A DNA stretch of 23,768 nucleotides from a virus, in IMG/VR virus record IMGVR_UViG_3300012954_000085, positions 1-23,768 of that record; one strand, 5' to 3'. The notes beneath the pieces are model-generated. The model searched no databases. It was not told the DNA's origin and saw only the letters and a program-made list of their open reading frames with translations. A program made the translations under genes and the position numbers. Position 1 is the stretch's first letter. Each line of letters begins with the position of its first letter. Below are positions 6,686-22,021 of this stretch, piece by piece.

Positions 6686-6690
6686 TTGTA

Positions 6691-8811: not shown

Positions 8812-9215
8812 TATAGCCTAGTAGGTTCAAGGATGAATGATACACTTTGAGATGGGGCGTTTTGTCCAACAATATCGTAAGAAATTGTCACCTCAAGACT
8901 GTTTGCGTCTGGTTCAGAAATAACATCAACCCGAGTCAATTTCACTCTAGGTTCAAAGTTAGTAATTGTTGTTTCAATCTCAGTTTTGATTGGATCGACA
9001 AAATCGCCGTCCGCTAGTTCAAAAAGAGCTCCCGTAATCCTAGTTCCCAGTAGGTTATTGAAGAAAACTTCGCCTAGTTGGATACGTACCAGGTTTTGTA
9101 CAGATCGCTTGATAGCGTCTTCATTCTTCAGAGGAATGATATCATTAGTAACTGGATGCCGTTTGAAAGACAGTGAAATGTCCTTGAATGGCAGCGATGT
9201 TCTCTGAAGAGGCAC
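8811..9215 (-). CDS. 25: Baseplate wedge protein gp25, lysozyme-like fold
   Basis: This 134-aa protein is a homologue of T4 gp25, which forms the core of the baseplate wedge with gp6 and gp53 and sits at the start of the sheath. The family hallmarks are visible. A short N-terminal strand region (LPFKDISLSFKRHP) precedes a conserved block with DAIKRSVQNLVRIQLGE, FNNLLGTRI and LFEL, followed by a beta-rich C-terminal half ending in SVSFILEPTRL. The length matches the family (about 130 aa). The start is a GTG at 9215 preceded by a weak TAGGT. No ATG gives a better N-terminus. It is the first gene of the late structural operon, about 25 nt downstream of a late promoter box. Confidence 0.95.
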   Translation of the reverse strand: MPLQRTSLPFKDISLSFKRHPVTNDIIPLKNEDAIKRSVQNLVRIQLGEVFFNNLLGTRITGALFELADGDFVDPIKTEIETTITNFEPRVKLTRVDVISEPDANSLEVTISYDIVGQNAPSQSVSFILEPTRL

Positions 9216-9239
9216 TGCGCGACCTAGTATTTCGTGATG

Positions 9240-9247
9240 TATTTATT
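9240..9247 (-). promoter_or_regulatory. T4-type late promoter box
   Basis: Read on the minus strand, this is AATAAATA inside CTCTAAATAAATAC, matching the NATAAATA late box of T4-like cyanophages (T4: TATAAATA). It lies about 25 nt before the gp25 GTG and just downstream of the terminator of the preceding operon, which is where a late promoter for gp25-gp6-giant gene should be. Confidence 0.7.
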
Positions 9248-9260
9248 TAGAGCATGAAAA

Positions 9261-9281
9261 AGGGGGATCAATGATCCCCCT
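9261..9281 (-). terminator. Rho-independent terminator
   Basis: AGGGGGATC and GATCCCCCT form a perfect 9-bp inverted repeat around a 3-nt loop. On the minus strand it is followed directly by TTTTT-like sequence (complement of the A-run at 9257-9260). It lies 4 nt past the stop of the 59-aa gene and ends the accessory minus-strand operon just before the gp25 promoter. The plus strand has no T-run after the stem, so it works in one direction only. Confidence 0.9.
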
Positions 9282-9285
9282 AGTA

Positions 9286-9465
9286 TTAGTCTTCATCTCG
9301 ACCGACATACACGACATCTACACTCTCTGGATGCGGTGTTCCTGTCTGATAGAACTCATCCGCTAGATCTTGAGTATATTCTTCCATCTCCTCTTCATCT
9401 ATATTGTGGTGAATTAGATGACCTTCCACGAATATATCGTATCTGTCCATATCTAGCGTATTCAT
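9286..9465 (-). CDS. Small acidic hypothetical protein (59 aa)
   Basis: This ORF begins with MNTLDMDRYDIFVEGHLI and ends at a TAA just before the terminator hairpin. It is strongly acidic (EEEMEEY, DLADEF) with no membrane segment. The opening pattern YD-[IV]-[FY]-[VL]-[DE] followed by an amphipathic acidic helix resembles the 51-aa protein at 14782-14937 and short cyanophage ORFs of unknown function that I recall. It is the last gene of the accessory operon, 17 nt after the glycosyltransferase stop. No Shine-Dalgarno sequence is visible before the ATG. The function is unknown. Confidence 0.75.
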   Translation of the reverse strand: MNTLDMDRYDIFVEGHLIHHNIDEEEMEEYTQDLADEFYQTGTPHPESVDVVYVGRDED

Positions 9466-9482
9466 TTGATATATCTATAAAA

Positions 9483-10247
9483 TCAAATGATTCTAGTCTT
9501 CTCGTGTCCAACTCGACACTTAGGATCACACCAGATCTCGAACCCTGCTTTCTTAGCATCAAGGCAGAATGAAACGTCCTCTCCACACATGTCCTGGACT
9601 TCACCAGACTCAAAAACCTGCATTTGTGGTGCAAACCAGGGGTACTTCATCATCTCGTGTTCAAACACACCATACTTGATCAACAACCAACCGAAACCGG
9701 TGTAGTCAACAGTAAATGGTTTGCGACGCTTCTGAATACCATCAAGCATCTCGTGGTTCATCACACCACCATTGTTCTTGAAGTCATCTTCTTCCAACCA
9801 GTGTGCAACAGAAGTGGTATTGCCATCTTCAGTCACATACCAACCAGCAGCAAGGTCTCTGTCCATCCAAAGGATACGATAGAACTGCTCAAGACCAAAA
9901 ACAATATCACTGTCAATCCACAGTTGGTAGTCATATTGCAGTTTGCCCTGCCAAGGTTTTTGATCTGGACCTTGGAGAACATTTGCACCCAAGCACTTAC
10001 AACGGGCAAAGTTGACCATTGACGAGTAGTCTTGGGAGATTTGAATAGCACCTCCCTGCTGCACAATCTCAAAACAGAGTTGTACAAAGTTCTTGAGGAA
10101 GATATATGATACACCGCGACCAGGAAGGCAGAAGACAAAGGTCTTACCCTTTACCATCTCTCTTGCGGCTTCAATTGAAAATTCGTCCGACTTTTGTGTC
10201 TGTTCACCTTCAGGCGGAGTCGTCACCACCTTGAAACCTTTAGCCAT
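9483..10247 (-). CDS. GT-A-fold glycosyltransferase
   Basis: This 254-aa soluble protein looks like a GT-A glycosyltransferase, transferring a sugar from a nucleotide donor with a bound divalent metal. The DxD motif is DSD at residues 112-114 in YDYQLWIDSDIVF. The acceptor-side acidic motif is GED at 222-224 (CGEDVSFCLDAKKAG), and a C-terminal metal-ligand type histidine is H248 (RVGHE). The N-terminal ~35 residues are polar and outside the fold, which begins at KTFVFCLPGRGVSYIF with a GT-A first strand. There is no signal peptide or membrane anchor, so it should act in the host cytoplasm. Similar genes occur near gp25 in T4-like cyanophages. The donor and acceptor are unknown. The neighbouring sulfo-, carbamoyl- and SGNH genes suggest a decorated glycan. 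Confidence 0.8.
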   Translation of the reverse strand: MAKGFKVVTTPPEGEQTQKSDEFSIEAAREMVKGKTFVFCLPGRGVSYIFLKNFVQLCFEIVQQGGAIQISQDYSSMVNFARCKCLGANVLQGPDQKPWQGKLQYDYQLWIDSDIVFGLEQFYRILWMDRDLAAGWYVTEDGNTTSVAHWLEEDDFKNNGGVMNHEMLDGIQKRRKPFTVDYTGFGWLLIKYGVFEHEMMKYPWFAPQMQVFESGEVQDMCGEDVSFCLDAKKAGFEIWCDPKCRVGHEKTRII

Positions 10248-10270
10248 ACATGTAGGTCAATTTGTAATAA

Positions 10271-10296
10271 GGCATCATGCCTGCAGGCATAATACC
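10271..10296 (-). terminator. Intercistronic 13-bp hairpin after the radical SAM gene
   Basis: The centre (10277-10290) is a perfect 14-bp palindrome, ATGCCTGCAGGCAT. In minus-strand RNA the stem extends to 13 bp including two G-U wobbles. In plus-strand RNA those positions become A-C mismatches, so the structure favours minus transcripts. It lies 7 nt beyond the radical SAM stop. The following bases (TTATTAC) are only weakly U-rich, so it may be a leaky terminator, a processing site or a stability element. Confidence 0.5.
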
Positions 10297-10303
10297 ATAT
10301 TAT

Positions 10304-11518
10304 TTAGTACCCCGCAAGTTCGGGAAAAGTCTGTCTCCAATTGGTATTTCTTAGACTGTCAAGGTCATCAAAATACTTTTTCGCCTTTATCCATCCATTT
10401 GTTATTGGACTTTGCATCATCTGCTTAGCAACAGACTCATCTACACTTTTCACATCATCATAGATCTCTTCTTTGATGGGATGGGGCAAATTATTGACCC
10501 TGAGGTAATCTGGGTTTTCTAGGTTGTTATAGATCTGAAATGGACGTTTTTTGAGACCACGTTTTTCAAAAAACTCAAATACTTCCTTGATCTTGTAAAC
10601 AGACAAAACAGATGGAGTATATGTTCCTGCAATTGACCCCTTACCAGTCCTAAGGAAATACTCGCGTATTTCGTCCACATGACTCAAGGTCTGCTCCCAA
10701 TTAGTTGGATATCGCAAATAATAGTTCCTATCACCCAAACCATCACAACTCCACTGAATGTGGGTATAATTGAATCTATCAAGATATTTTTGCATCTGCT
10801 TCAAAGTAAATATCGTCATATTCGATACATACGACAAACTAATAGACCTTGACTTACCAGAACCAGCAAGAGCATCTAAAACCCTAAAATGGGATTTCAT
10901 TAGCATCGGTTCTCCACCACAGAAAGATATTGACTTGATACGATCTGCATTATCTAAAATGTCACTTATAATGTCACTAAATTGAGCTTGATCAATTTTT
11001 AGGAGATCTGTATCTGGAAACTTATTAGTTCTCGGATATCTCTTATCAAGATCTGCTAATTGCTCTAAACGTCTGTCTCTAGTCGTAGAATCTCCAGAAT
11101 GGCAACCATAGCATTCTAAGTTACAAGTATTACCATAAAAATTCAATTCTAGGTTCAGATTTCTTGCAGTGCCCGTATAACTCCCATCTTCGGCATAATG
11201 ATCTAAAATTTTGGGATCATACAACTCATTCATCAAACGAGGTGATGTACCAAAGTGTTTCTCCTTATAGAAACATCTTTGACACATTGCTTTGACATAT
11301 TCTGACATTTCACCAGCGAGCATTGCACGACGCAATTCTTTCGCCTCAGGACCATCATAATAATCAAATGGTGTCGTATTAGCAGGACCGACTAATTGTT
11401 GAGTTTGCATCCAACAGCATGGTGTATAACCATGCGACATTCCATTACGAATGTTGGTAAATGGATAAGAACAAAAAGAATTATTTTTTATGTCACTTAG
11501 AAGGTCTTCTTTCTTCAT
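10304..11518 (-). CDS. Radical SAM protein (twitch/SPASM-like, N-terminal extra cysteines)
   Basis: This 404-aa enzyme has the radical SAM signature CxxxCxxC at C132, C136 and C139 (NTCNLECYGCHSGD), which binds the 4Fe-4S cluster that cleaves S-adenosylmethionine. It also has the SAM-binding GGEP at 201-204. Before the core lie further cysteines at C16, C34, C35, C79 and C82 (YTPCCWMQ and AMCQRCFYKE), resembling a twitch/SPASM auxiliary-cluster domain placed N-terminally. I know this arrangement from a radical SAM family common in T4-like cyanophages. The substrate is unknown and could be a peptide or a sugar. I chose the ATG at 11518, whose first base is shared with the SGNH stop (TGATG). 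A GTG one codon earlier is possible. A hairpin follows the stop. Confidence 0.85.
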   Translation of the reverse strand: MKKEDLLSDIKNNSFCSYPFTNIRNGMSHGYTPCCWMQTQQLVGPANTTPFDYYDGPEAKELRRAMLAGEMSEYVKAMCQRCFYKEKHFGTSPRLMNELYDPKILDHYAEDGSYTGTARNLNLELNFYGNTCNLECYGCHSGDSTTRDRRLEQLADLDKRYPRTNKFPDTDLLKIDQAQFSDIISDILDNADRIKSISFCGGEPMLMKSHFRVLDALAGSGKSRSISLSYVSNMTIFTLKQMQKYLDRFNYTHIQWSCDGLGDRNYYLRYPTNWEQTLSHVDEIREYFLRTGKGSIAGTYTPSVLSVYKIKEVFEFFEKRGLKKRPFQIYNNLENPDYLRVNNLPHPIKEEIYDDVKSVDESVAKQMMQSPITNGWIKAKKYFDDLDSLRNTNWRQTFPELAGY

Positions 11519-12357
11519 CACTTAGGAAAAAAGTGCTTGAGTCCTGGATGTTCAATCATTTGACTTAGAATCCATTTTGCGATAGCAATATGACCATTTG
11601 CACTAGGATGCCATCCCCCTAACCACCTGTGAGTGTCTTCCTCATCACCAGTGGCAAATTCAGTCTTACGATCCCGCAAATCAAGAGTTCTGTACTCTCT
11701 AATCAATTCTTCTTCATTCATCCACCATGATGGGCAGATAGCATTAGTTTCTCCGGGATGGTAGTCCCTAGGAACGAATTCTTCTTGAGATGGAGTAACA
11801 CCTTTGATATCGCGGTTCTTGACTAACTCCATCCATGGACTGACACAATACTTGAGTTCTGTTTCAGTCCATTCCTCTAATTGCAAGAAGATATAAGGAA
11901 TACCCTTCTTCTCAAAGTAACTTTCAAGAAGAAACACATTTTTGAAGAAATTTTCAATATACTGGGTCCGGGACTTGACATTCTTATCCCACCACTCACA
12001 AATCCCAATTACTTTGTGATCTGGGTGACAACCATGGAAATGTTCGTACTGATCCATGCTATACCAGCGTTCATGCTCTTCACTATAGAACGCCCACCTC
12101 TGGGGATGAGAAAACTCGACAACTACGAGATCTGCTTCATTATTCTCACACCAAGTGACTGTATCACGGGTAATCTGATCATTTGAGTAACCAGAGTATC
12201 CAATATTGTCAAAAGTAACATTCAACCCATATAAGTCATTGACATACTCACTGACTACGTTTGAGTACCTCAGTTTGTCTCTAAGTTCAAGACTATGCTC
12301 CAGACCGTCTAATTCGGTGCCTTCGCAGAAGGAATCTCCGGAGAATAGGATTTTCAT
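11518..12357 (-). CDS. SGNH/GDSL-family hydrolase or acyltransferase
   Basis: This 279-aa protein has SGNH-hydrolase features. Block I is GDSF at residues 7-10 with the nucleophile Ser9 directly after strand 1. Block II is probably NIGYSGYSNDQ near residue 54, and block V is WHPSANGH with catalytic His at residue 250. SGNH enzymes remove or transfer acyl groups on sugars, lipids or peptides. There is no signal peptide, so the action is probably intracellular or virion-associated. Its ATG overlaps the carbamoyltransferase stop (ATGA) and its stop overlaps the radical SAM start, so the three are coupled. It differs from the plus-strand SGNH group in block I (GDS, not GCS). Confidence 0.75.
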   Translation of the reverse strand: MKILFSGDSFCEGTELDGLEHSLELRDKLRYSNVVSEYVNDLYGLNVTFDNIGYSGYSNDQITRDTVTWCENNEADLVVVEFSHPQRWAFYSEEHERWYSMDQYEHFHGCHPDHKVIGICEWWDKNVKSRTQYIENFFKNVFLLESYFEKKGIPYIFLQLEEWTETELKYCVSPWMELVKNRDIKGVTPSQEEFVPRDYHPGETNAICPSWWMNEEELIREYRTLDLRDRKTEFATGDEEDTHRWLGGWHPSANGHIAIAKWILSQMIEHPGLKHFFPK

Positions 12358-13733
12358 AATACAGTCACGTTATACTTGTTTGAAAAATCTAATGCATCAG
12401 ACCATTCGTTGACCATTGGCATGCCACGAATGTTCAGTGATGTATTTAGTAGCACTGGGCAACCTGTGCGCTCTTCCCACGCCTCTAGAATCGCCCTGAA
12501 GACCGATGGACTGGTTTCCGGTACCGTTTGCACTCTTGCACTATTATCGACGTGTACGCAGGCAGGAATGTCGTCTGGACGCTTACATTGATAGACATAA
12601 GACATGTACCGGGAATGTTCTGGCATCCAGAAGTAATCTTGGCAAGATTCCTCCAGAATTGCCGGAGCAAACGGTCTGAACTTCTGCCTCTTCTTGATTT
12701 CGTTGACTCGATCCTTATTTGCAAAGGTTCGGGGGTCTGCAAGCAAAGATCTGTTGCCTAGGGCACGAGGACCATATTCTGCCTTGCCATTTGCAACACC
12801 ACAGATACCATCCCTCAAAAGAACGTCTACAACCTCTTTGGGGTCGATTTTACGAGAAATACTGTGACCAGTATAAGGAGTGAACTCAACCTTCTTACCA
12901 GACGCCAATAAGGCAGCACCAAGTGCCCCACCGGCATCTCCTGGATTAGGCATGATCCATAGATTGCACTTATCCCGGAGTTTGGTGTTGGCAACGCAAT
13001 TTAGGGCAACTCCACCCCCATAACAAATATTATTGCTGTACTGCATTGCTATATCAAAAATAGCATGCAATTCTGTCTCCAGAACAACCTGTGCACTAGC
13101 AGCAACGTCTTCTTTGCTCTCAATGTCAAGTTGACAACCACGATGGTTGTTTTGTGACAGAAGTTGGCGAACTTCATCGATATGCTTCGGTTTTCCGAAT
13201 GCTGCCATACCCATGAAGATGTATTCCTCATCTAAAGGGCGAAGACCTGCCCATCCTGTCAATGCAGAGTACCAAAGACCAATAGACTTGGGATATGCCT
13301 GAGACCAGACCTTTTTATAGACTGCTTTACCATCTTCCATCTTTGCAGTCCATACAGAACTGCAATCCCACTCACCAATACTATCTACAACGACACATGC
13401 TGCTTCTTCAAAGCATGAAGTCTGAAATGCTGCCGCAGCATGCGATTGGTGGTGAGGAAAACTAATAGTTGGGCGTAATGCTAGATGTCGCCGCCTACGC
13501 CAGTGTTTTTGTCCAGCAAAAAATTGCCGAACACGTTTCGGGAACTGCTTCTCGTAAAAAGCAACTACGTCAGCATTTGGGTTGAGATAATTGCCGTAAA
13601 ACGCAAGTTCACCGCACAATTTCTTGTCATGTTTTTTCTTAGAATATCTTTCGCTGTGTGCAGCAAAGATAATCTTGTTTTCATGAACAACTGCTAATCC
13701 AGCGTCATGAAATCCTTCAGAAAAACCAATCAT
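12354..13733 (-). CDS. Carbamoyltransferase, NodU/CmcH/TobZ family
   Basis: This 459-aa protein is a NodU/CmcH-type O-carbamoyltransferase. These use carbamoyl phosphate and ATP, through a carbamoyl-adenylate made in the Kae1-like domain, to carbamoylate a hydroxyl group, often on a sugar. The family motifs are present. FHDAGLAVV lies at 8-16, ERYSKKKHD follows, HHQSH at 94-98 gives metal ligands, and the nucleotide-binding GGVALNCVANTKL and GGALGAALL come later. The C-terminal domain carries EYGPRALGNRSLLADPR and CPVLLNTSLN. At 459 aa it is shorter than many bacterial members (about 570), with linker regions compacted and the extreme C-terminus slightly short, but all catalytic motifs are present. 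It overlaps both neighbours by ATGA. The substrate is unknown. Confidence 0.92.
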   Translation of the reverse strand: MIGFSEGFHDAGLAVVHENKIIFAAHSERYSKKKHDKKLCGELAFYGNYLNPNADVVAFYEKQFPKRVRQFFAGQKHWRRRRHLALRPTISFPHHQSHAAAAFQTSCFEEAACVVVDSIGEWDCSSVWTAKMEDGKAVYKKVWSQAYPKSIGLWYSALTGWAGLRPLDEEYIFMGMAAFGKPKHIDEVRQLLSQNNHRGCQLDIESKEDVAASAQVVLETELHAIFDIAMQYSNNICYGGGVALNCVANTKLRDKCNLWIMPNPGDAGGALGAALLASGKKVEFTPYTGHSISRKIDPKEVVDVLLRDGICGVANGKAEYGPRALGNRSLLADPRTFANKDRVNEIKKRQKFRPFAPAILEESCQDYFWMPEHSRYMSYVYQCKRPDDIPACVHVDNSARVQTVPETSPSVFRAILEAWEERTGCPVLLNTSLNIRGMPMVNEWSDALDFSNKYNVTVL

Positions 13734-13861
13734 TCTACCTCTTCTGTTTCGTCGTCATCTAGATCCTCCTCCATATCATCAACCTCATAAATGAACGGAT
13801 CCATTTTGCGAATTTTCCAGAGATTGTATTCACCTTTGATCCAATACCAAAGACGGAGCAT
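13730..13861 (-). CDS. Small hypothetical protein (43 aa) with acidic tail
   Basis: This ORF is supported by a strong Shine-Dalgarno sequence (GAGGT, 5-6 nt before the ATG at 13861) and by a stop/start overlap (ATGA) with the carbamoyltransferase. The N-terminal half is Trp-rich and basic (MLRLWYWIKGEYNLWKIRK). The C-terminal half is almost all acidic (EEDLDDDETEEVE). It may be a leader that couples translation into the carbamoyltransferase. The function is unknown. Confidence 0.7.
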   Translation of the reverse strand: MLRLWYWIKGEYNLWKIRKMDPFIYEVDDMEEDLDDDETEEVE

Positions 13862-13891
13862 AATTACCTCGACAGCAGACTATGTATGTTA

Positions 13892-14782
13892 TCACTTTCT
13901 CCAGGATTCTGGCAAGTGCCCAAAATACTGCTTCCAATGCTCATAACATGGTTCTAAAAAGATTCCTGCCTTCTCACGGGCATGATCTGGTAGATGCATG
14001 ACATCAGACTCCCACTGGTCATTCAAATATTGGATATGTGGAGCACAGGGACCTAAATCTGGAACATATGCGTTTGGATGAACATCTCCAATCTCCATAC
14101 CGATAAAATCAGAAAGTGGAGCAGTATCACCTGCCCAAAAATCTTCCATGATCGTAATATGGACGGCATCCTCTCCAAAAGCAGCTGCCCATTTGATATA
14201 CATGTCCACATAGTCAAAATCCATGCCACACTTCAAAAAATGCTCGACAGGTTTGTCTCTTTTCTGTGCCTGACGACAAGACCAGAGTCTACGGAGAGGA
14301 TCTCGAAAAATAATGTGGATTTTTACGTCAAAATAACTCTGTAAGTGAAATGCCAAGAATTGTAGATATTCTGGAGAGCAATATCCATTAGGATTGCTAA
14401 AATCAGCAACTGCCTTATAATCATCCTTGATATTATCCCAATGCTTGAGATAATATTGAACGTATTTCTTCAATTCAAACGGAGGACCCCAAAAATACTC
14501 AATTTCTTCCTCAGACCACTTTCCAGCAACATAAGGAGATTCGTGAGTGAAAATTTTTGGTTTTCTCGTTGTTATTGACTTCCTTGACGGTCCAAAAAAC
14601 TTCTTGTAGAATTTTACTCTCTCAAAAGTGTTTTTATCTTCCTGCAATTGAAGCAACCACAAATATCCCTTCTCTTTGCGGTGACCTGCATGACAATACT
14701 TGTTATACCACCCCAAAGTGTAGTATAATGGAGTAGTACCGGACCATCCCGTTCCTACGTTCAAAAATAACGTGGGTTTCAT
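13892..14782 (-). CDS. Sulfotransferase-family protein A
   Basis: This 296-aa protein fits the PAPS-dependent sulfotransferase fold, which transfers sulfate from 3'-phosphoadenylyl sulfate to hydroxyl or amino groups. A P-loop-like 5'-phosphosulfate segment is GTGWSGTTP at residues 10-18, right after strand 1. The 3'-phosphate site is FRDPLRRLWS at 159-168 with Arg and Ser in the expected places. The C-terminal half ends in WKQYFGHLPESWRK. It has no membrane segment. It is clearly paralogous to the divergent gene at 14969-15946, sharing the first residues MKPTL and the C-terminus. Its ATG shares one base with the 51-aa gene stop (TAATG). The acceptor is unknown. Sulfation of a glycan is plausible from the context. 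Confidence 0.8.
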   Translation of the reverse strand: MKPTLFLNVGTGWSGTTPLYYTLGWYNKYCHAGHRKEKGYLWLLQLQEDKNTFERVKFYKKFFGPSRKSITTRKPKIFTHESPYVAGKWSEEEIEYFWGPPFELKKYVQYYLKHWDNIKDDYKAVADFSNPNGYCSPEYLQFLAFHLQSYFDVKIHIIFRDPLRRLWSCRQAQKRDKPVEHFLKCGMDFDYVDMYIKWAAAFGEDAVHITIMEDFWAGDTAPLSDFIGMEIGDVHPNAYVPDLGPCAPHIQYLNDQWESDVMHLPDHAREKAGIFLEPCYEHWKQYFGHLPESWRK

Positions 14783-14937
14783 TATTCACATGGTTCAATT
14801 CTGATGTCTTCGACCTTATAAGTAGTATTGATTCCTGCCATGATCATTCTTTGCATGGTAGTGCGAATCTCTTCTGCTTGTTCCTTTGAAATAGATTCAA
14901 AGATCATTTTCTTGTCTAGATAGACATCGTAAGGCAT
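14782..14937 (-). CDS. Small hypothetical protein (51 aa), first gene of the accessory operon
   Basis: The protein begins MPYDVYLDKKMIFESISKEQ. A longer frame exists upstream, but I chose the ATG at 14937 because a strong AGGGGGG Shine-Dalgarno run lies about 8 nt before it. It has the YD-[IV]-[FY]-[VL] opening plus a Glu-rich helix also seen in the 59-aa protein that ends this operon, suggesting the two are distant relatives. It is coupled to sulfotransferase A by a TAATG overlap. The function is unknown. Confidence 0.7.
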   Translation of the reverse strand: MPYDVYLDKKMIFESISKEQAEEIRTTMQRMIMAGINTTYKVEDIRIEPCE

Positions 14938-14968
14938 AAAAATTCCCCCCTGACGTATATAGTTTACC
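14938..14968. promoter_or_regulatory. Compact divergent intergenic region
   Basis: Only 31 bp separate the two divergent start codons at 14937 and 14969. It holds the AGGGGGG Shine-Dalgarno run for the minus gene and a TATATA core at 14956-14961 that is AT-rich on both strands. Any promoter for either operon must use this core or lie inside the opposite gene. No clear late box is present. Confidence 0.4.
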
Positions 14969-15946
14969 ATGAAGCCCACTCTGCTTTTGAACCCTGGTAC
15001 AGGTTGGTCTGCTACCAGTCCATTTCATTACACAGTGACGATGGAGAACCAGTATGCCCACATGGGGCATAAGAAAGAGAACTGGTACCTCAACTGCTTG
15101 CAACAAAATACCCCATCCGCTTGGAGGATGTTCGATACCTTGTGGGAAGGTACGCAATACAACGGTGGTAAACGACCACCCACGCATCCTTTTGGGAAAT
15201 ATTTGTCCCGAAGTAACCTTTTTATCGAAAATACGTCAACTGAGATTCTCCAAAAGACTCCAAAACACATTGATGGGTATATTGAATACTTTTTAGGTCA
15301 CTATGAAAACGTCAAAGAGACATATGCGGCAGTTTGCGACTTCTCGAACGCCAATTTTAGTCTTGACAGGGAATTTTTGTTGGGAATTGCTCCAAAACTT
15401 CGTGATCACTTCAACGTAAAGGTCACAATGCAGTTCCGGGACCCGGTTCGGCGCTATTTTTCCGAAGTTGGCAGTGTCTGTCAGCGAGAACTCGAAATTA
15501 TGGACGCATTTGGAGGCGATTTTGTCGCTTCTCGTTATGCTGCCAGAAAAAAGCACAAAAAACTCTTTTTCTGGAACCTAAAAAAGGATCGTTTGCCGTA
15601 TCACTGCGATTATACCGATGGTTACCTGAAATTTTGCGATGCATTTGGGAAAGAAAACGTTTATCCCATGGTTATGGAAGATTTTTGGAACCCAGATAAG
15701 GAAAAAGAAGAGTTAGAGCGTCTTTCTAACTTCCTAAATTACAAAATTACCAAAATTCATCATAATTGTTATGTCCCAGACATGGGAAGTAATGCACCTG
15801 AGTACGATTACCTCAAAGATCAGTGGTCAAGTGACATTGAAGACCTTGATGAAGAGGATATCAACGTTGCTGGAATGTATATGGGTCGCTTCTATAAGGA
15901 TTGGAAGGTTGTTTTCGATGAGTTGCCTGATTCATGGGGAAAATAG
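14969..15946 (+). CDS. Sulfotransferase-family protein B
   Basis: This 325-aa protein is a paralogue of sulfotransferase A, arranged head to head. The N-terminal segment GTGWSATSP (10-18) aligns with GTGWSGTTP, but its P-loop Gly and Thr positions are changed to Ala and Ser. The 3'-phosphate segment FRDPVRRYFS (156-165) keeps Arg and Ser. The C-terminus (WKVVFDELPDSWGK) also aligns with A. It is about 30 residues longer, with a Lys-rich insertion near residues 190-210. It may use the same donor, PAPS, on a different acceptor, or have reduced activity because of the P-loop changes. It starts the plus-strand accessory run. The window shows no Shine-Dalgarno sequence before its ATG. Confidence 0.78.
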   Translation: MKPTLLLNPGTGWSATSPFHYTVTMENQYAHMGHKKENWYLNCLQQNTPSAWRMFDTLWEGTQYNGGKRPPTHPFGKYLSRSNLFIENTSTEILQKTPKHIDGYIEYFLGHYENVKETYAAVCDFSNANFSLDREFLLGIAPKLRDHFNVKVTMQFRDPVRRYFSEVGSVCQRELEIMDAFGGDFVASRYAARKKHKKLFFWNLKKDRLPYHCDYTDGYLKFCDAFGKENVYPMVMEDFWNPDKEKEELERLSNFLNYKITKIHHNCYVPDMGSNAPEYDYLKDQWSSDIEDLDEEDINVAGMYMGRFYKDWKVVFDELPDSWGK

Positions 15947-15999
15947 AGTGCTACCAAGTCACCGTAATGACTTTGACCATATTCGCCAAACTATGTCGC

Positions 16000-16007
16000 G
16001 ATAAATA
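16000..16007 (+). promoter_or_regulatory. Late promoter-like box
   Basis: GATAAATA matches the NATAAATA late box of T4-like cyanophages. It lies 42 nt before the first tandem SGNH gene, in the 103-nt gap after sulfotransferase B. That gap holds nothing else I recognise. Confidence 0.5.
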
Positions 16008-16049
16008 CGGCAGGATACCACGATTACTACCTCCTCGTTATATCACAGA

Positions 16050-16838
16050 ATGACGCTAGTTACCTTTGGATGCTCTTGGACGTTTGGAGTTGGTCTCCAT
16101 TACGAAGAAGGGATGACTGAAATAGATTATCGCAAGAGCGGTAAGATGACCGATAAAGAAGTATCCAGAGAATATGCATGGAGAAGCATCCTTGCTGAAC
16201 GTTGGGGGATGGAAAATAAGAATTTTGCGGTAATGGGATCCTCAAATGAGAGGCAATTCCGTATGGCGACGAAATATTTTGGAGATTTGTCGAAACAGAA
16301 GTGTCAAAATACCACTGTCATATGGGCATTGACAGTTACACCACGCACAGAAGTGTGGTATAACTCAAAACAGGACTATGTAAACGTTCTATTTGGTAAT
16401 GGATGGGGTAAAGACGCTATGAAAGAGCGTGCACAATTCAATGTCAAGGAACATATAACCCATCACTACAATCATGAGCAAAAAGTTATCCTCTTATCGC
16501 AACAAATAAGGTTCTGGGACAAGTTTTTTGCTCTTGCTGGGATCAAAAATTACTGGTTGGATACTTTCAACCACCATAATTACGACTACAAGAGTCCTAA
16601 TATGCTTTTTGATGACAAACCTCAGCGGGATTTACTATCATTGAGATGTGCAGACCGTGGTTATGCTCCTAAAGCAGACGGATATCACGTTTCACAGTTC
16701 GCTGACAGCGATTCCAGCAGAGTTCCCTACCTCGTAAAGCAAGGTGATCTAAATCCATACTCATATCATCCAACAAAATCCTGCCACGCCTGGTTCGCTG
16801 ACAAAATTTATGACGAGATTGCTAACATTAGGGTGTAG
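16050..16838 (+). CDS. SGNH-family hydrolase-like protein 1
   Basis: This 262-aa protein belongs to the SGNH superfamily. After the first strand comes GCSW at residues 7-10, with Ser9 as nucleophile. The block II region MGSSNERQF is near residue 64, WALTVTPRTEVW forms the next strand and turn, and YSYHPT with His240 supplies the catalytic base. A segment shared with its relatives (FWDKFFALAGIKNYWLDTFN) marks it as part of the tandem family that follows. It has no signal peptide. Its last 29 nt overlap the start of the next gene, so the GCSW-coding strand of gene 2 is also the tail of gene 1. No Shine-Dalgarno sequence precedes its ATG. Likely chemistry is esterase or acyl transfer on an unknown substrate. 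Confidence 0.75.
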   Translation: MTLVTFGCSWTFGVGLHYEEGMTEIDYRKSGKMTDKEVSREYAWRSILAERWGMENKNFAVMGSSNERQFRMATKYFGDLSKQKCQNTTVIWALTVTPRTEVWYNSKQDYVNVLFGNGWGKDAMKERAQFNVKEHITHHYNHEQKVILLSQQIRFWDKFFALAGIKNYWLDTFNHHNYDYKSPNMLFDDKPQRDLLSLRCADRGYAPKADGYHVSQFADSDSSRVPYLVKQGDLNPYSYHPTKSCHAWFADKIYDEIANIRV

Positions 16839-17685
16839 TTGGGTAAAGGGAATCGGTGCTTCCTACGACAACACCAAAAAATACACAAGAGATGAGTATC
16901 GTAAGTTTAGTTTTGACAACGAACAACGCAAATATTCTTTTACGACGTTGTTGTGCAAGAAATATAAACTAGATCATGTTGATATTAGTGCAGGTGGAGC
17001 AGCAAATAACTCTCAAGCACGTAAACTAAAGAGGTATTTGCTTGCTAATGACCTGAATGACACTATTGTCATGTGGGGAATCACGTCAATCTATCGTGAT
17101 GAAATGTATTTTACCGATACTAAGAAACATCATTCGTTCCAACCTAACCAAAAAGTAGATTTACGTAAGACTGGTCGCAGCAATTGGTGCGGCCCTAAGG
17201 AACATTTCAATTTACACTTTGATGAGGAGATGGCAATATCCCTGTTGACATCAGATATTTGCCATTGGCAGAAACATTTTGAGTTAGCAGGTTGTGAACA
17301 GATGTGGTTTGACACTTTGAATACTATAACTTACGCAGAATACAGAGGACACTCACTCCATAAACCATTTTGTGAGATGCCCTACCCTTGCAATAAGGAT
17401 TTACTTAGTCAATTAGCATACAAGAATGGGTGGGATCCAATAGATGACAAGTATCATTCTTCAGATTGGAGAGCAGATTGTGATAGAATAAAACTATTAG
17501 AGCAAAAGGGAGTTGTAAATCCATACTCTTTCCACCCAACACGCCAGGGTCATGAGCAAATTGCGGAGATCCTTGACCCAATCTTTGAAAAGTATTATAA
17601 TAGACACAAAAGTAACAACCCAAATCCCAGTTTATACAAAACTTTGTGGCATAAATCATACCAAGTGAGTAATTACGATGACTAA
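16810..17685 (+). CDS. SGNH-family hydrolase-like protein 2
   Basis: This 291-aa protein is close to SGNH protein 3 (roughly half of residues identical by eye). Block I is LTLGCSW with nucleophile Ser10, block II is GGAANNSQ near residue 62, WGITSIYR is the block III strand, and YSFHPTRQGHEQIA carries the catalytic His242. Conserved positions shared with protein 3 include WCGPKEHF, LLSQLAY and SDWRADCDRI. It has a C-terminal extension of about 28 polar residues absent from protein 3. It overlaps gene 1 by 29 nt and gene 3 by 8 nt, so the trio is translationally coupled. The function is inferred only as an SGNH esterase or acyltransferase. Confidence 0.78.
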   Translation: MTRLLTLGCSWVKGIGASYDNTKKYTRDEYRKFSFDNEQRKYSFTTLLCKKYKLDHVDISAGGAANNSQARKLKRYLLANDLNDTIVMWGITSIYRDEMYFTDTKKHHSFQPNQKVDLRKTGRSNWCGPKEHFNLHFDEEMAISLLTSDICHWQKHFELAGCEQMWFDTLNTITYAEYRGHSLHKPFCEMPYPCNKDLLSQLAYKNGWDPIDDKYHSSDWRADCDRIKLLEQKGVVNPYSFHPTRQGHEQIAEILDPIFEKYYNRHKSNNPNPSLYKTLWHKSYQVSNYDD

Positions 17686-18484
17686 GTTACTGACTTTGGG
17701 GTGCAGTTGGATGGAAGGTGTCGGGGCTATGTACGTTCCGAACGTTCATAAGACATCCCAATTGTATAGCGATGTTTCACATAACCGAGAGTTGATGGCA
17801 AAATACTCTTTTAGAACTATTCTCTCAAAGAAGTATGGTTTTGAAAATGTCAATCTGGGTAAGGGTGGTGCATCTAATGGTTCGATGTTCCGTAGAGTGC
17901 TAACATACTTACGGAAAAATACTTTAGATGATACTATTGTCCTGTGGGGAATAACTTCTATCTACAGAATGGAGTTGTTTTTCAATCACTCGAAAGGGTT
18001 TTCGTCATTTCAACCAACACAAAGATCAAAAGCAAACTTACATGGTCCTGATTGGGTTGGACCAAAAGAATACTTTCGTCAACACTTCGATGAAAAAGTT
18101 CAACTAAACCACATGATCCGTGAAATATGTCATTGGCGGCACTATTTTGAGTTGCTTGGTGTTCCTCAACTATGGTTTCATACGTTGAATTACCCTGGAA
18201 TTGATTGGCGCAAAAAAGATGCTTTCCGAAACTTTGTGAAACTACCTTATCCTTGCAATAATGACTTACTAAGTCAATTGGCATATCATAATGGATGGAA
18301 TCCAAAGGATGATAAGTATCACTTTTCTGACTGGAAAGCAGACTGTGATCGTATTTCACATCTGAAAAAGAGGAAGATAGTCAACCCATACTCCTTCCAT
18401 CCAACTCTAGAGGGACATAAGCAAATCGCTGACATCCTTGACGCAGCAGTGAATAACTGTTATACTAACTATAAGGGAGTATAA
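17678..18484 (+). CDS. SGNH-family hydrolase-like protein 3
   Basis: This 268-aa protein is a tandem duplicate of SGNH protein 2. It has LTLGCSW with Ser10, KGGASNGSMF as block II, WGITSIYRME as block III, and YSFHPTLEGHKQIA with His241. The middle regions DDTIVLWGIT and DLLSQLAYHNGWNPKDDKYH are nearly the same as in protein 2, while the N-terminal loop after GCSW differs, which suggests a diverged substrate pocket. The gene begins inside the last codons of gene 2 (ATGACTAA overlap) and ends 7 nt before the DUF3310 gene. No signal peptide is present. Confidence 0.78.
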   Translation: MTKLLTLGCSWMEGVGAMYVPNVHKTSQLYSDVSHNRELMAKYSFRTILSKKYGFENVNLGKGGASNGSMFRRVLTYLRKNTLDDTIVLWGITSIYRMELFFNHSKGFSSFQPTQRSKANLHGPDWVGPKEYFRQHFDEKVQLNHMIREICHWRHYFELLGVPQLWFHTLNYPGIDWRKKDAFRNFVKLPYPCNNDLLSQLAYHNGWNPKDDKYHFSDWKADCDRISHLKKRKIVNPYSFHPTLEGHKQIADILDAAVNNCYTNYKGV

Positions 18485-18491
18485 CATTCTT

Positions 18492-18920
18492 ATGGCCGAA
18501 ATTCACGCAGACGATGAGTTTGGACTACCTCTTGATTTCGTAACTTCAAGAAACAAGATGAAAGAAGAAAAAGTAACTGACTCCATCACTATTGGTACAG
18601 GTGAGTCATTTGGTGCAGCACAACCTGTTCCTATGGATGGAATAATCTTCGGTGCTGAGGGTGCAGATGTTATTTCATTTGATATGAGTATTCCTGAAAA
18701 GCGTCCTCAACCCAAGAGTGCTAATTACAGTCATCCCGAGCACTACAATACCGGTAAGATTGAAGTATGGGACTTTGTTGCAGATCAAGGTCTTGACTTC
18801 TTTGCTGGAAATGTGGTAAAATATGTCAGTCGAGCAGGTAAGAAAGTGGGCGAATCTCGTCTCTCAGACTTACAGAAAGCTAGGACATACATACAGAAAA
18901 TGATTGATCTTTCGGCATGA
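18492..18920 (+). CDS. DUF3310 (nucleotide kinase-like) protein
   Basis: This 142-aa protein carries a C-terminal DUF3310 domain at residues ~78-142. The hallmark is HYNTGKIEVWDFVADQGLDF, followed by GNVVKYVSRAGKK and LSDLQKARTYIQKMI. DUF3310 proteins are small phage proteins sometimes annotated as nucleotide kinase-like. Their biochemical role is not settled. The N-terminal ~75 residues are acidic, lack recognisable motifs and are probably disordered. An AAGGGAG sequence in the end of the preceding gene may serve as a distant Shine-Dalgarno site. Its stop overlaps the next SGNH start (ATGA). It is an outsider within the SGNH run and may simply be co-expressed. Confidence 0.88.
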   Translation: MAEIHADDEFGLPLDFVTSRNKMKEEKVTDSITIGTGESFGAAQPVPMDGIIFGAEGADVISFDMSIPEKRPQPKSANYSHPEHYNTGKIEVWDFVADQGLDFFAGNVVKYVSRAGKKVGESRLSDLQKARTYIQKMIDLSA

Positions 18921-19552
18921 TCTTTGCGGGTTGTTCTTATACATGGGGTGATGAACTGAGGAATCGCCTGACTGAGCGATTCATCCATCATGTCTCTAAA
19001 CATTATAAGACTGAAGTTACAGATCTATCCCAATGTGGTGCATCTAATGACTTCATCGTAAATAGGGCACTGCATGAGATCAAGACTAATGGTGTTCAAC
19101 CTACGGTCTTGCAACTCACAGTGCCTACCCGCATTGAATACTATGCAGAAGATGGTCCACATCTATTCTGCCCCTATCGCTTCCGTCAAGATAACTCTAA
19201 CTTCAACTTTCGCTCTGGTAACAAGAAGAAAGTCCCACACTCCCTAGCAATGTCTTCCTACTACCGTTGGGTGTGGAATAAGACACATGGTGGGGAGAAT
19301 CTGTATAAGAACTTATTGTTATTTGAACAGTTTGCTAAGGTACACAATGTTCCTTACATTGTACTGTTCAATGATTGCGATCCACTAGCAGATCTTGGTT
19401 ATTGGCGTAACCTAATGGATGACTCTACGATGCATTGCATCTATAAGGATATCCTGAAGATTATCCAGACACCAGGTCAAGGTCATCCAAATGCACTGCA
19501 GCATAAGACTATTGCTGAGTATATTATTGCACACACGGACTTTGATTGCTAG
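18917..19552 (+). CDS. SGNH-family hydrolase-like protein 4
   Basis: This 211-aa protein is a shorter, more divergent family member. Block I is AGCSYTWGDE with Ser7. Block II is CGASNDFIVN. LQLTVPTRIEYY takes the block III position, and GHPNALQHKTIAEYI contains the probable catalytic His190. It lacks much of the middle insert (roughly 50 residues) of proteins 1-3. It is coupled to the DUF3310 gene by ATGA. The length is near the minimum for the fold but all expected catalytic positions are filled, so I regard it as probably active. The substrate is unknown. Confidence 0.75.
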   Translation: MIFAGCSYTWGDELRNRLTERFIHHVSKHYKTEVTDLSQCGASNDFIVNRALHEIKTNGVQPTVLQLTVPTRIEYYAEDGPHLFCPYRFRQDNSNFNFRSGNKKKVPHSLAMSSYYRWVWNKTHGGENLYKNLLLFEQFAKVHNVPYIVLFNDCDPLADLGYWRNLMDDSTMHCIYKDILKIIQTPGQGHPNALQHKTIAEYIIAHTDFDC

Positions 19553-19555
19553 AAT

Positions 19556-19563
19556 CTAAATAA
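19556..19563 (+). promoter_or_regulatory. Late promoter-like box
   Basis: CTAAATAA in the 34-nt gap before the small Cys protein resembles the CTAAATA/NATAAATA late boxes elsewhere in the window. The spacing to the ATG at 19587 is about 23 nt, as for gp25. No Shine-Dalgarno sequence is seen here. Confidence 0.45.
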
Positions 19564-19586
19564 TTCGATCAACTGCTGTTCTCCCC

Positions 19587-19856
19587 ATGAGAAAATGTGA
19601 GAAATGTGGTGCTACCTGGATGGAGGGTCAACTCTACTGGCAGGGTACTGGTAAACCGGGTAAAGATATAGATCTCGCTGGTTTAGTCTGTAATAATATT
19701 CAAACAGATGATCCAGACTACGGCAAATGCATCAATGCATCTAGAGGTAAATCAGGTGGTGATACTTGGGAATATCGTAGAGGGTTTCTTGATGGTGCAC
19801 TTGACTCCCTCAAAAAACAACGTGAGGACATGAGGGATAAATTTGGCGATCTCTGA
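19587..19856 (+). CDS. Small Cys-rich putative zinc-binding protein (89 aa)
   Basis: The protein opens with MRKCEKCGATWMEGQLYW, giving a CxxC pair at C4 and C7 typical of a treble-clef or zinc-ribbon start. C35 and C48 could complete a four-Cys metal site. The C-terminal third is a charged helix (LDSLKKQREDMRDKFGDL). Similar short CxxC proteins occur in cyanophages, but I do not know a function. It overlaps the next gene by 14 nt, and a GAGGG within its end appears to serve as the ribosome site for that gene. Confidence 0.7.
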   Translation: MRKCEKCGATWMEGQLYWQGTGKPGKDIDLAGLVCNNIQTDDPDYGKCINASRGKSGGDTWEYRRGFLDGALDSLKKQREDMRDKFGDL

Positions 19857-20646
19857 TACATTATTGGTTGTTGGTGGTAGATGGGCAGAAGGCAGAACTG
19901 CCGGATATGTTCATGGTCAATCTAAAAAAGAATGGTCACAACTCAATAATAACCCAGACTCCTGCCGCCACCTTCATTGGGGGGAACTACTAGGAATAAA
20001 ACATAACCTACATGTTGATTATATTGCCGAAAGTGATCAAACCAATGAAGAAGCATTCCTTAGAGTAACAGAATACTTACAGAGACCTCATAACCTCGTA
20101 GGAGTCATCTGGGAAGTACAACCAATATATCTCAAACGTATATACTCCAGTAAGACTGATTTTCGTAAATCCTGTAGTCCATATTTCCCAGAACATATCA
20201 AAGATCATATAAGATCTCATAAGATTGACTTTGACTATTACTTCGATAATTATATCGACCCAGCATGGGAAAGAACCTGTCTCCAAATGGCAATCGCCCA
20301 TTGGGATGAATACTTCAAACTAAAAGGCATACCTAACTATTGGTTTGATTCCTTATACGACTGTATTCACCCATGTCCACGTGGGATTCGTAAATGTTTA
20401 CTACAGGAACTCACTTGGGTCTGCTCCACCGATTATGAACTAAACGGTGACTGGCACCTCTGTTATAGAGATCGTAAAGACTATCCTCAGTTAGATCATG
20501 CAGTTACTGTGGGTCTAGTGGATCCATTCTTTCACTCACCTACAAAAGAGGGGAACCGGCGAATCGCACTCATCATGGAACACGTCTATAAAGACATCTT
20601 TCATAACCCTTATAACTATATTTCATACCCTCACCTTCGTGCATAA
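19843..20646 (+). CDS. SGNH-like protein 5, probable catalytically dead paralogue
   Basis: This 267-aa protein starts at a TTG (19843), the only usable start between the in-frame stop at 19831 and the first strand, with GAGGG six nt upstream. It aligns with SGNH proteins 1-3 over the whole length. The strand LLVV is followed by GGRW at 11-14 where the others have GCSW, so the nucleophile Ser is Arg. WDEYFKLKGIPNYWFDSLYD matches WRHYFELLGVPQLWFHTLNY of protein 3. DPFFHSPTKEGNRRIA aligns with NPYSFHPTRQGHEQIA, putting Ser232 at the His position with a His one residue earlier. Both catalytic positions are changed while the scaffold is kept, so a binding or regulatory role is more likely than hydrolysis. 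Confidence 0.75.
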   Translation: MAISDTLLVVGGRWAEGRTAGYVHGQSKKEWSQLNNNPDSCRHLHWGELLGIKHNLHVDYIAESDQTNEEAFLRVTEYLQRPHNLVGVIWEVQPIYLKRIYSSKTDFRKSCSPYFPEHIKDHIRSHKIDFDYYFDNYIDPAWERTCLQMAIAHWDEYFKLKGIPNYWFDSLYDCIHPCPRGIRKCLLQELTWVCSTDYELNGDWHLCYRDRKDYPQLDHAVTVGLVDPFFHSPTKEGNRRIALIMEHVYKDIFHNPYNYISYPHLRA

Positions 20647-20667
20647 AGAGGGTTCCGAACCTCACCC

Positions 20668-20898
20668 ATGACCCAATCATTCGCTCCACTACTCCCAGGC
20701 ATGCAAAGTTTCCTAATACACCTCACAGCATTCTTTCAGGTTGTAGTGGTCAACTGTGTACAACCAGCAAACTGGGAGCACTGTGCACCTGTACATGAAT
20801 GGTTACTGCCAGAACTAGCAGTTGGTTATCAACTATGGACTGGGCAAACAACTCCCTACGACTCTGAGAAGGAATTTCTCCATGAAATATCTCATTGA
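20668..20898 (+). CDS. Small hypothetical protein (76 aa) with a hydrophobic segment
   Basis: The ORF fits the gap between SGNH-like protein 5 and the 55-aa gene. Residues ~14-30 (SFLIHLTAFFQVVVVNC) are hydrophobic enough for one membrane pass. The rest is polar with Trp-rich WEHCAPVHEWLLPE. An AGAGGG lies 15 nt before the ATG, rather far. It overlaps the next gene by 17 nt. I recognise no family and cannot exclude that it is a chance frame. Confidence 0.5.
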   Translation: MTQSFAPLLPGMQSFLIHLTAFFQVVVVNCVQPANWEHCAPVHEWLLPELAVGYQLWTGQTTPYDSEKEFLHEISH

Positions 20899-21049
20899 AT
20901 ACCAAGACCAATTCTTCAAGTGGCATCGCTATGGCGAGCAGCACAACTTGACATCTGCTTCTAGTTTGGCAAAAGGTCGTTCAATCCAAACTGGTAAGAA
21001 GTTTCGCTTGACTCAAAATGGCAATTTAGTCGAAATCTTCTACCCTTGA
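20882..21049 (+). CDS. Small basic hypothetical protein (55 aa)
   Basis: The ATG at 20882 has a good Shine-Dalgarno sequence (AAGGA, about 8 nt upstream). The opening MKYLIEYQDQFFKWHRYGEQ and the later AKGRSIQTGKKFRLTQNG fit a small beta-rich basic protein type that I recall from T4-like cyanophages, function unknown. It is the last gene of the plus-strand run, ending about 25 nt before the strong terminator at 21075-21112. Confidence 0.75.
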   Translation: MKYLIEYQDQFFKWHRYGEQHNLTSASSLAKGRSIQTGKKFRLTQNGNLVEIFYP

Positions 21050-21074
21050 TATGACTGCATAGTTGAACACTTCT

Positions 21075-21112
21075 CCCCCCTCGAAAGGTTGGGGGTGGGG
21101 GGGATTTTTTTT
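21075..21112 (+). terminator. GC-rich terminator with T8 tract
   Basis: A C6 run (21075-21080) can pair with either of two G runs (G5 at 21091-21095 or G7 at 21097-21103), and the second is followed after one base by eight T residues. It lies just after the last plus-strand gene. The alternative pairings are unusual. The stem is pure G-C. Confidence 0.8.
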
Positions 21113-21258
21113 CCTCGGAATTTTTTCTAAGGGACCTCTGGGGGTCTCCGAAAAAAATTTTGATATTGATATCACTAGGTCGTCTGGAAACGTTTATAGC
21201 TTAGAAAGACGGTACTTTTTTGGCAACGCCCCCCCGCGATCACAACAACCGGCACCGA

Positions 21259-21357
21259 ATCACTGTCCCTGAGTGATACTAACTGTCCGTGGCAGTTTGT
21301 GTCAGATAGTGGGCACGATTGGTGTGAGGTTCTTGATGCTTACTGTGTGCCCACTAT
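21259..21357. other. Three consecutive hairpins, candidate structured RNA
   Basis: The first stem is ATCACT/AGTGAT (21259-21264 with 21272-21277, 7-nt loop). The second is AACTG/CAGTT (21281-21285 with 21293-21297, 7-nt loop). The third is a perfect 11-bp pairing ATAGTGGGCAC/GTGCCCACTAT (21306-21316 with 21347-21357) closing a 30-nt loop. No ORF overlaps it convincingly, and I match it to no known RNA family. Confidence 0.5.
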
Positions 21358-21484
21358 GTGTCTCTCAGTGTCTCCTAGTTTCCTCCTTGGTTGTTATCCG
21401 AATCATAGCAGTGATTTCTCCCAGTGACTGTCAGAAATGTGCCAGTTCGTAGACTGTCTAAATGTCACTAACTGTTCGACTGTT
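21262..21484 (+). repeat. Recurring ACTGTY hexamers
   Basis: ACTGTC occurs at 21262, 21282, 21427 and 21453, and ACTGTT at 21471 and 21479, all in the same orientation. Six copies in about 220 bp of otherwise unique sequence is far above the roughly 0.1 expected. The spacing is irregular. Confidence 0.45.
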
Positions 21485-21498
21485 TGTGAACTTAGGGG

Positions 21499-21527
21499 TT
21501 GCAATTCTTGGAGATTCGTGGTAGAAT
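21499..21527 (+). promoter_or_regulatory. Sigma70-like promoter without an obvious gene
   Basis: TTGCAA (21499-21504) and TAGAAT (21522-21527) are separated by exactly 17 nt, close to the TTGACA-N17-TATAAT consensus. No plus-strand ORF follows before the opposing gene at 21609, so it may drive a non-coding or antisense RNA. Confidence 0.5.
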
Positions 21528-21608
21528 TGTGAGTTCATTGTGTGCTCGCTAAGGTAACAGTAACTCCGCACAATAAGGAACGAATAAGTTTACATAACAC
21601 GATTTATT

Positions 21609-21746
21609 TCAACATTTACGATTACACTTAGAAACACGATATTCCATGAATAAACGATAGTCAACGGGGTGCATATTTAGTAGGGCATGATACACCTCAT
21701 CATTGACTAAAGTATCAGTATTTCCAGTGGATTTACGATGTTTCAT
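21609..21746 (-). CDS. Small basic hypothetical protein (45 aa)
   Basis: The ORF begins MKHRKSTGNTDTLVNDEVYH and ends YRVSKCNRKC, a basic protein with two Cys near the end. It is in line with the run of small minus-strand genes and has the same ACTAAC leader element immediately before its ATG (TTACTAACA) that other genes of the run show. No Shine-Dalgarno sequence is present. It is too short to be certain. Confidence 0.5.
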   Translation of the reverse strand: MKHRKSTGNTDTLVNDEVYHALLNMHPVDYRLFMEYRVSKCNRKC

Positions 21747-21791
21747 TGTTAGTAACTGTGCTGCTGCGCGTTTACATCAATAAAACATAAT

Positions 21792-22007
21792 TTAGAACCT
21801 ATTTGGCACTTTATATAGTTGGACGGAACTAACACAAAATGCAGCAGATTCAGTGATCTGATTGACTACATCCTCCTCATTATCTGCATACCATACGGTA
21901 CACATAGCAGCATCGATTATCCCCTGTCTAAATGACAATGGACACTCGAAGTCTCCATCTACCCAATCAAACTGAATGGAGTCAATTACGTATCTTGATT
22001 GTGTCAT
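21792..22007 (-). CDS. Small acidic hypothetical protein (71 aa)
   Basis: The protein starts MTQSRYVIDSIQFDWVDGDF and is acidic with three Cys. It looks like a small alpha/beta protein without signal or membrane segment. It lies 39 nt downstream of the 115-aa gene. The gap holds a leader with ACTAAC and TCAACCCCATT that is repeated before the 115-aa gene, and there is no Shine-Dalgarno sequence. I recognise no family. Confidence 0.65.
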   Translation of the reverse strand: MTQSRYVIDSIQFDWVDGDFECPLSFRQGIIDAAMCTVWYADNEEDVVNQITESAAFCVSSVQLYKVPNRF

Positions 22008-22021
22008 GATCTTGAAAGAAT

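Follow-up and report, generated by a model that had tools for sequence, protein, structure and literature searches.

A hypervariable island of sulfotransferase, carbamoyltransferase and SGNH genes, possibly glycan-tailoring, at the gp46–gp25 hot-spot of an uncultured marine cyanomyovirus clade

Introduction

The region between gp46 and gp25 is a described hot-spot of cyanophage genomes (Sullivan et al., 2010, PMC3037559), and in the named phages looked at here it is occupied mainly by very small unknown genes and by 2-oxoglutarate-Fe (2OG-Fe) oxygenases. Phage-encoded decoration of surface glycans is known from mycobacteriophages, whose virions are glycosylated by phage glycosyltransferases (Freeman, 2023, as cited in PMC12619734); the cited passage mentions neither sulfation nor carbamoylation. 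Here we describe an 11.4-kb gene island at positions 9261–20646 of a 23.8-kb virus fragment (IMG/VR record IMGVR_UViG_3300012954_000085, 1–23,768), the whole of which is called the window. The island encodes two 3'-phosphoadenosine 5'-phosphosulfate (PAPS)-type sulfotransferases (ST1 and ST2), a short NodU/CmcH-type carbamoyltransferase (CT), an N-terminal-twitch radical S-adenosylmethionine (SAM) protein, a glycosyltransferase-like protein (GT) and six SGNH-family proteins (SGNH-A to SGNH-F), arranged in divergent overlapping arrays. An initial annotation of the window had described these enzymes and their divergent overlapping operons, and open reading frames (ORFs), overlaps and profiles bear this out; it passed over the small ORF that follows GT and the genes for a 51-amino-acid (aa) protein, a DUF3310 protein and a phrog_484 protein.

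The window is assigned to a T4-like cyanophage because it carries the baseplate wedge genes gp6 and gp25 (6691–9215, minus strand) and a Kyanoviridae gp96 gene; psbA/psbD-family photosystem genes were found in 3 of 10 large related contigs. Although gp46 could not be found in the window, the island can be placed by gp25–gp6–gp7 and by GT, which corresponds to T4-GC 102 and in P-SSM2 and S-SSM7 likewise lies immediately upstream of gp25. The island is thus the known gp46–gp25 hot-spot with undescribed content: the position is shared with these phages, whereas the clade of the window fills it with sulfotransferases, SGNH proteins and a distinct CT. The literature on cyanophages with sulfotransferase or SGNH genes yielded no description of this island. 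We tentatively read it, at slightly less than an even chance, as a hypervariable island for glycan tailoring in an uncultured marine cyanomyovirus clade.

Conserved position and variable content

From the 228 relatives returned by a search of IMG/VR with the CT, the best 80 were retained, and 87 loci with a CT were counted; the linkage counts are therefore conditional on the CT and on the closest relatives, and retrieval by the CT biases them. Scattering of the genes without conserved linkage, the outcome that the initial annotation had set against its proposal, was looked for, and linkage was found instead: in 85/87 loci the CT leads to GT, either directly, past an SGNH or radical SAM gene or, in a few loci, past several ORFs. 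After GT, the order in related loci is gp25, gp6 and then a large gp7-like gene. Where the sequence extends more than 5 kb upstream of the CT (n = 39 loci), each locus carries 0–8 ST and 1–7 SGNH genes there, and ST and/or SGNH genes occupy the site in every one of these relatives. Of the ORFs of 90 aa or more, the two families together make up 165 of 192 (86%) in the first 2 kb upstream of the CT and 79% over the 2 kb beyond. The divergent pair formed by ST2 and the unit of the 51-aa gene, ST1 and CT is kept in roughly 25 loci, as counted by eye. The gene collection is no chance pile-up, and the order CT–GT–gp25 is conserved.

These counts bear on whether the genes share a pathway at all. Independent accessory genes could have collected in a tolerant hot-spot, as would suit an interval already known as one (PMC3037559), the turnover of ST and SGNH genes and their presence elsewhere in the genomes, and the inheritance of GT across cyanophages separately from the rest. 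We regard this explanation as unlikely, since most of the site is given to only two enzyme families, the CT keeps one position in 85/87 loci (a count biased by retrieval with the CT) and a CT is linked to an island-family SGNH gene in an unrelated bacterium too. Conversely, the one dedicated pathway that had been proposed is plausible and has conserved linkage behind it, but the ST/SGNH set varies strongly and also occurs in other islands, so that a variable tailoring repertoire fits better.

Between the window and its close relatives, the ratio of nonsynonymous to synonymous substitution rates (dN/dS) is 0.03–0.16 for CT, ST1, GT and gp25. The dN of ST2, the radical SAM gene and several SGNH genes is about two to four times faster, with dS often saturated. 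Every dN/dS value that could be measured lies well under 1, and positive selection was not found in these comparisons, in which synonymous sites are often saturated. Purifying selection keeps the enzymes functional while the gene set turns over.

The carbamoyltransferase

The closest described enzymes are those of the TobZ/NodU/CmcH family, which includes the cyanophage 'Nol-like carbamoyltransferase' (phrog_1601) and has both domains and the core motifs in common with the window CT (12354–13733, minus strand). The protein matches Pfam Carbam_trans_C (3.1e-51, 173.7 bits) and Carbam_trans_N (1.8e-37, 130 bits), both above cutoff. Aligned to a novobiocin-type CT, a 597-aa CT and the enzyme of an Actinobacteria metagenome-assembled genome (MAG; L112), it has the HxxxH-type metal site, GPRALGxRS and the C-terminal LLNTSxN. 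In contrast to the family at large, it belongs to a shorter, 459-aa clade; it is 26–31% identical to the S-SSM7 and S-SSM5 enzymes, 38% to that of phage C48C1 and 66% only to that of a single-virus genome. There is strong support for its identity as a predicted O-carbamoyltransferase of the short clade.

A member of the same superfamily, also of phage origin, carbamoylates 5-hydroxymethylcytosine (5hmC) to give 5cmdC (MetaGPA, PMC8670742), so that a phage-type CT acting on phage DNA in this way has a precedent. For the window CT, such DNA hypermodification is very improbable. The partner thymidylate-synthase/hydroxymethylase (PF00303) and TET (PF12851) genes were found in 0 of 10 large related contigs, several of them incomplete; the published 5hmC enzyme reads GPRALCNTT where the window CT has GPRALGNRS, the motif of antibiotic-type O-carbamoyltransferases; and sulfotransferases would have no role there. 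DNA hypermodification was disfavoured on the first two of these grounds.

The sulfotransferases

ST1 (13892–14782, minus strand) lies in the CT unit, and ST2 (14969–15946, plus strand) is divergent from it. As single queries neither matched a Pfam or PHROG model. The family comprises about 150 unique relatives; its profile matches the solved sulfotransferase 3rnl at 1e-8, and 10 of 56 relatives match Sulfotransfer_3 (best 3e-10). The 3'-PAPS motif RDPxxRxxS is conserved across the family (R160 96%, P162 99%, R165 99%, S168 94%; n = 151). In the 5'-phosphosulfate-binding (5'-PSB) loop region, ST1 reads GTGWSGTT and ST2 GTGWSATS, and the strict pattern is matched by 43/151 family members. The ST1 model has a mean predicted local distance difference test (pLDDT) score of 93.6, and its PDB matches with E <= 0.001 are all sulfotransferases. 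From the family profile, the motif and this model, ST1 and ST2 are predicted to be PAPS-type sulfotransferases. Known PAPS-dependent enzymes (Sulfotransfer_3; 3-OST, NDST and TPST) share the fold and the 3'-PAPS motif with them, and the fold matches include heparan-sulfate and tyrosylprotein sulfotransferases; in contrast, the island enzymes form a family of their own, multiplied up to eight per locus.

The function of phage sulfotransferases has been called unclear (PMC10580990). Homologues of ST2 in the phage collection were confined to records of one uncultured virus, AG-345-D19; this virus comes from plate AG-345, an extracellular sort (PMC6122165), and its genome is therefore that of a single virus particle. 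The family was absent from all five named phages checked (5/5), and we conclude that named phages almost entirely lack it. A cellular origin was looked for in the genome collection with a narrower ST alignment and two patterns only, and no cellular relative was found.

The SGNH proteins

SGNH-A (GDSF; 11518–12357, minus strand) lies between the radical SAM gene and the CT, with 4-bp overlaps on both sides (11518–11521 and 12354–12357). The others follow ST2 on the plus strand: SGNH-B (GCSW; 16050–16838), SGNH-C (GCSW; 16810–17685), SGNH-D (GCSW; 17678–18484), SGNH-E (GCSY; 18917–19552) and SGNH-F (GGRW; 19843–20646, start uncertain). SGNH-B and SGNH-C overlap by 29 bp, SGNH-C and SGNH-D by 8 bp.

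The set is one diverged family, and all six proteins are recovered by a profile from which window and near-window sequences were left out. The family profile matches a GDSL-like protein (0.0014), and family members match Lipase_GDSL and DUF6071. SGNH-D, which as a single query had no match in named phages, gave a model with pLDDT 92.2 that matches GDSL esterases at E 5.6e-5, acetyl-xylan esterases and PatB being among the fold matches. With described DUF6071/GDSL proteins the family shares the block I Gly-x-Ser, a C-terminal His-Pro and the GDSL-esterase fold; the block I serine (GxS) is present in 96% and the block V histidine in 92% of members (n = 208). It differs from them in its several tandem diverged copies and in block III, where the GxND asparagine is not conserved at its place and N67 and R97 are conserved instead. 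The set is accordingly SGNH-like rather than classical SGNH hydrolases. The assignment of all six to the family stands, but SGNH-F, which keeps the family signature and is only 27–34% identical even to its closest relatives, has GGRW where GxS would be expected and is unlikely to be a serine esterase.

The radical SAM protein and GT

The radical SAM gene (10304–11521, minus strand) gives a full-length match to NCBIfam NF033640 (254.6 bits against a cutoff of 170), with CxxxCxxC read as CNLECYGC; its presence varies among relatives. GT (9483–10247, minus strand) matches phrog_1574 at 2.2e-110. The GT-A glycosyltransferase of the initial annotation is supported by an invariant DxD (D112/D114) and a weak PHROG glycosyltransferase match (8e-6), but its profile matched no solved glycosyltransferase in the PDB; it is likely a glycosyltransferase and is best called putative. 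GT does not belong to a special set, as had been assumed: it occurs in 103 named phage records and is a general cyanophage gene, with 2OG-Fe oxygenases as neighbours in P-SSM2, Sf-FS3 and S-SCSM2R.

Transcription signals and the neighbouring baseplate genes

In the window, GT and gp25 are separated by an intrinsic terminator (9261–9281, minus strand; 9-bp stem, 3-nt loop, T tail) and by the late-promoter-like motif CTAAATA (9244–9250, minus strand), 35 bp upstream of gp25. Among 67 distinct GT–gp25 intergenic regions of relatives, 51 have a terminator-like hairpin and 50 have CTAAATA; the motif stands in 43/55 distinct gp25 upstream regions against 0.8% expected. We take CTAAATA to be the cyanophage late motif, and its place before gp25 supports this. 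Since terminator and motif part GT from gp25, the island lies beside the baseplate operon and outside it, and the baseplate genes, the island's fixed neighbours, look like a separate late unit. Co-transcription of the cassette with the baseplate genes was rejected in view of the conserved terminator and late motif. The adjacency to gp25 and gp6 that had been pointed out is real, but the enzymes are not part of that transcription unit, and adjacency does not by itself imply virion decoration.

Inside the island, the motif occurs 60 bp upstream of the window GT (10301–10307). It is found upstream of GT in 38% of cases and of SGNH genes in 8%, before ST in 1/143 and before CT in 1/67 (about 1%). 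The CT and ST genes are thus probably driven otherwise than by the late motif.

The missing late motif would fit earlier expression, and so it bears on a possible role at the host surface, in which the enzymes would sulfate, carbamoylate or deacylate cyanobacterial lipopolysaccharide or exopolysaccharide and thereby mask receptors against superinfection or ease progeny release. Sugar-nucleotide genes within related cassettes are consistent with such a role, and gene sets that differ between close phages would suit the exclusion of rivals. Serotype conversion, however, is known mainly from temperate phages, whereas the island phages are T4-like; the island has no membrane or export gene, and a further island adjoins fibre-like genes. 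We therefore consider host-surface modification improbable.

Further islands and a cellular counterpart

Two genomes carry more ST and SGNH genes at 42–47 kb, between structural/fibre-like and putative neck genes, and a further ST/SGNH island adjoins putative ribonucleotide-reductase and transaldolase genes; the neck, ribonucleotide-reductase and transaldolase names are putative, read from protein starts. The second ST island also contains a gene for a DctP-type solute-binding protein of a tripartite ATP-independent periplasmic (TRAP) transporter (L105 5959–6915, minus strand; at about 44 kb in genome G001). P-loop ORFs starting TGPQGSGNHL recur there (L105 4141–4776 and 9191–9871; L108 15413–16820); they have no Pfam match and might be another sulfotransferase-like or kinase family.

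Sugar-nucleotide genes accompany several of these sets. In one genome, the island that adjoins the putative reductase and transaldolase genes has a phosphomannomutase amid its SGNH and ST genes (L109), with mannose-6-phosphate isomerase and GDP-mannose dehydratase nearby. Cassettes of relatives at the gp25 site include a UDP-glucose/GDP-mannose dehydrogenase 2 bp from the CT (L091), an NAD epimerase (L094) and an HpcH aldolase (L009). The initial annotation had left the substrate as a glycan or a metabolite; the sugar-nucleotide genes inside related cassettes support the glycan.

The nearest cellular CT (46% identical) is that of the Actinobacteria MAG L112, in a cluster (37–13674) with a nonribosomal peptide synthetase (NRPS)-like A-T-TE protein, a radical SAM protein, an aminotransferase, a major facilitator superfamily (MFS) exporter, a DUF6071 SGNH protein and a 2OG-Fe oxygenase. 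The SGNH gene, present in a single copy in that genome about 2 kb from the CT, matches the phage profile. The cluster looks like a carbamoylated natural product pathway, matched here to no known one. As 395 genomes of the L112 class otherwise gave generic CTs only (about 40% identical), the cellular CT–SGNH link rests on one cluster.

This cluster ties the CT to the island SGNH family outside phages and speaks for a small-molecule role, in which CT, SGNH, radical SAM and ST proteins would tailor a metabolite or peptide and not a glycan. Nor are N-terminal-twitch radical SAM proteins specific to glycans, which agrees with such a role. Against it, there is only one cellular instance, no NRPS, polyketide synthase or ribosomally synthesized and post-translationally modified peptide (RiPP) precursor was recognised in the phage islands, and up to eight sulfotransferases per phage suit a polymer better. 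A small-molecule pathway is quite unlikely on balance.

Other features of the island

The conserved protein of about 51 aa (MPYDVYLDKK...; 14782–14937, minus strand) is encoded by the first gene of the CT unit. Its start was set at 14937, not 14979, as relatives begin at an identical MxYDVYL. Matches lie near the CT in most loci, and the gene opens the CT unit in many relatives; the protein belongs to no known family, with a weak phrog_2626 match only. The DUF3310 protein (PF11753, 2.9e-14; 18492–18920, plus strand) lies inside the SGNH array and overlaps SGNH-E by 4 bp (18917–18920). The phrog_484 gene (19587–19856, plus strand) has a CTAAATA of its own at 19556–19562, as it does in 6/6 relatives. 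Beyond SGNH-F, about 1.4 kb (20650–22040) holds short ORFs only; a terminator-like G-run/T-run hairpin near 21096–21117 looks like the end of the island.

A proposed tailoring scheme and its implications

How the products might act together as a glycan-tailoring set is set out here as a proposal for carrier and chemistry; substrate and site (virion, host surface or metabolite) are what we infer. GT or host enzymes would place a sugar on an acceptor, either a protein or a lipid, and the CT would carbamoylate a hydroxyl with carbamoyl phosphate and ATP. The sulfotransferases would add sulfate at different positions with host PAPS as donor, the SGNH proteins would move or remove acyl groups, and in some phages the radical SAM protein would make a further change. 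Exchange of ST and SGNH genes may then alter the pattern between phages, by analogy with O-antigen modification genes and serotype. The most likely carrier would be a virion surface glycan (tail, fibre or baseplate), followed by the host envelope. The logic would resemble that of mycobacteriophage virion glycosylation, the virion being the proposed location here.

Several observations weigh against a glycan-tailoring island. No acceptor, polymerase, flippase or ligase was seen in the window, and GT is general to cyanophages with its glycosyltransferase activity only predicted. With CTAAATA so scarce before ST and CT genes, late timing linked to the virion is not favoured, the nearest cellular CT sits in an NRPS-like natural-product cluster with an island-family SGNH, and SGNH-F is without the catalytic serine.

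A bolder form of the proposal, which we hold to be rather unlikely, is a combinatorial code of sulfation, carbamoylation and acylation, in which a lineage-specific set of ST and SGNH enzymes would pattern one conserved carbamoylated glycan or metabolite and so give a phage serotype for adsorption, rival exclusion or particle protection. To our knowledge no role has been assigned to phage sulfotransferases, and such a code, if it exists, would have no known precedent as a sulfated-glycan system encoded by a virus. In a widespread uncultured group of marine cyanophages, about 10 kb at a fixed site, with up to a dozen genes, is given over to sulfotransfer and SGNH chemistry. The island would be a virus-borne biosynthetic pathway if its target is a metabolite; if the target is a virion or host glycan, sulfate and carbamate chemistry would join phage–host recognition in the sea's most abundant photosynthetic cells.

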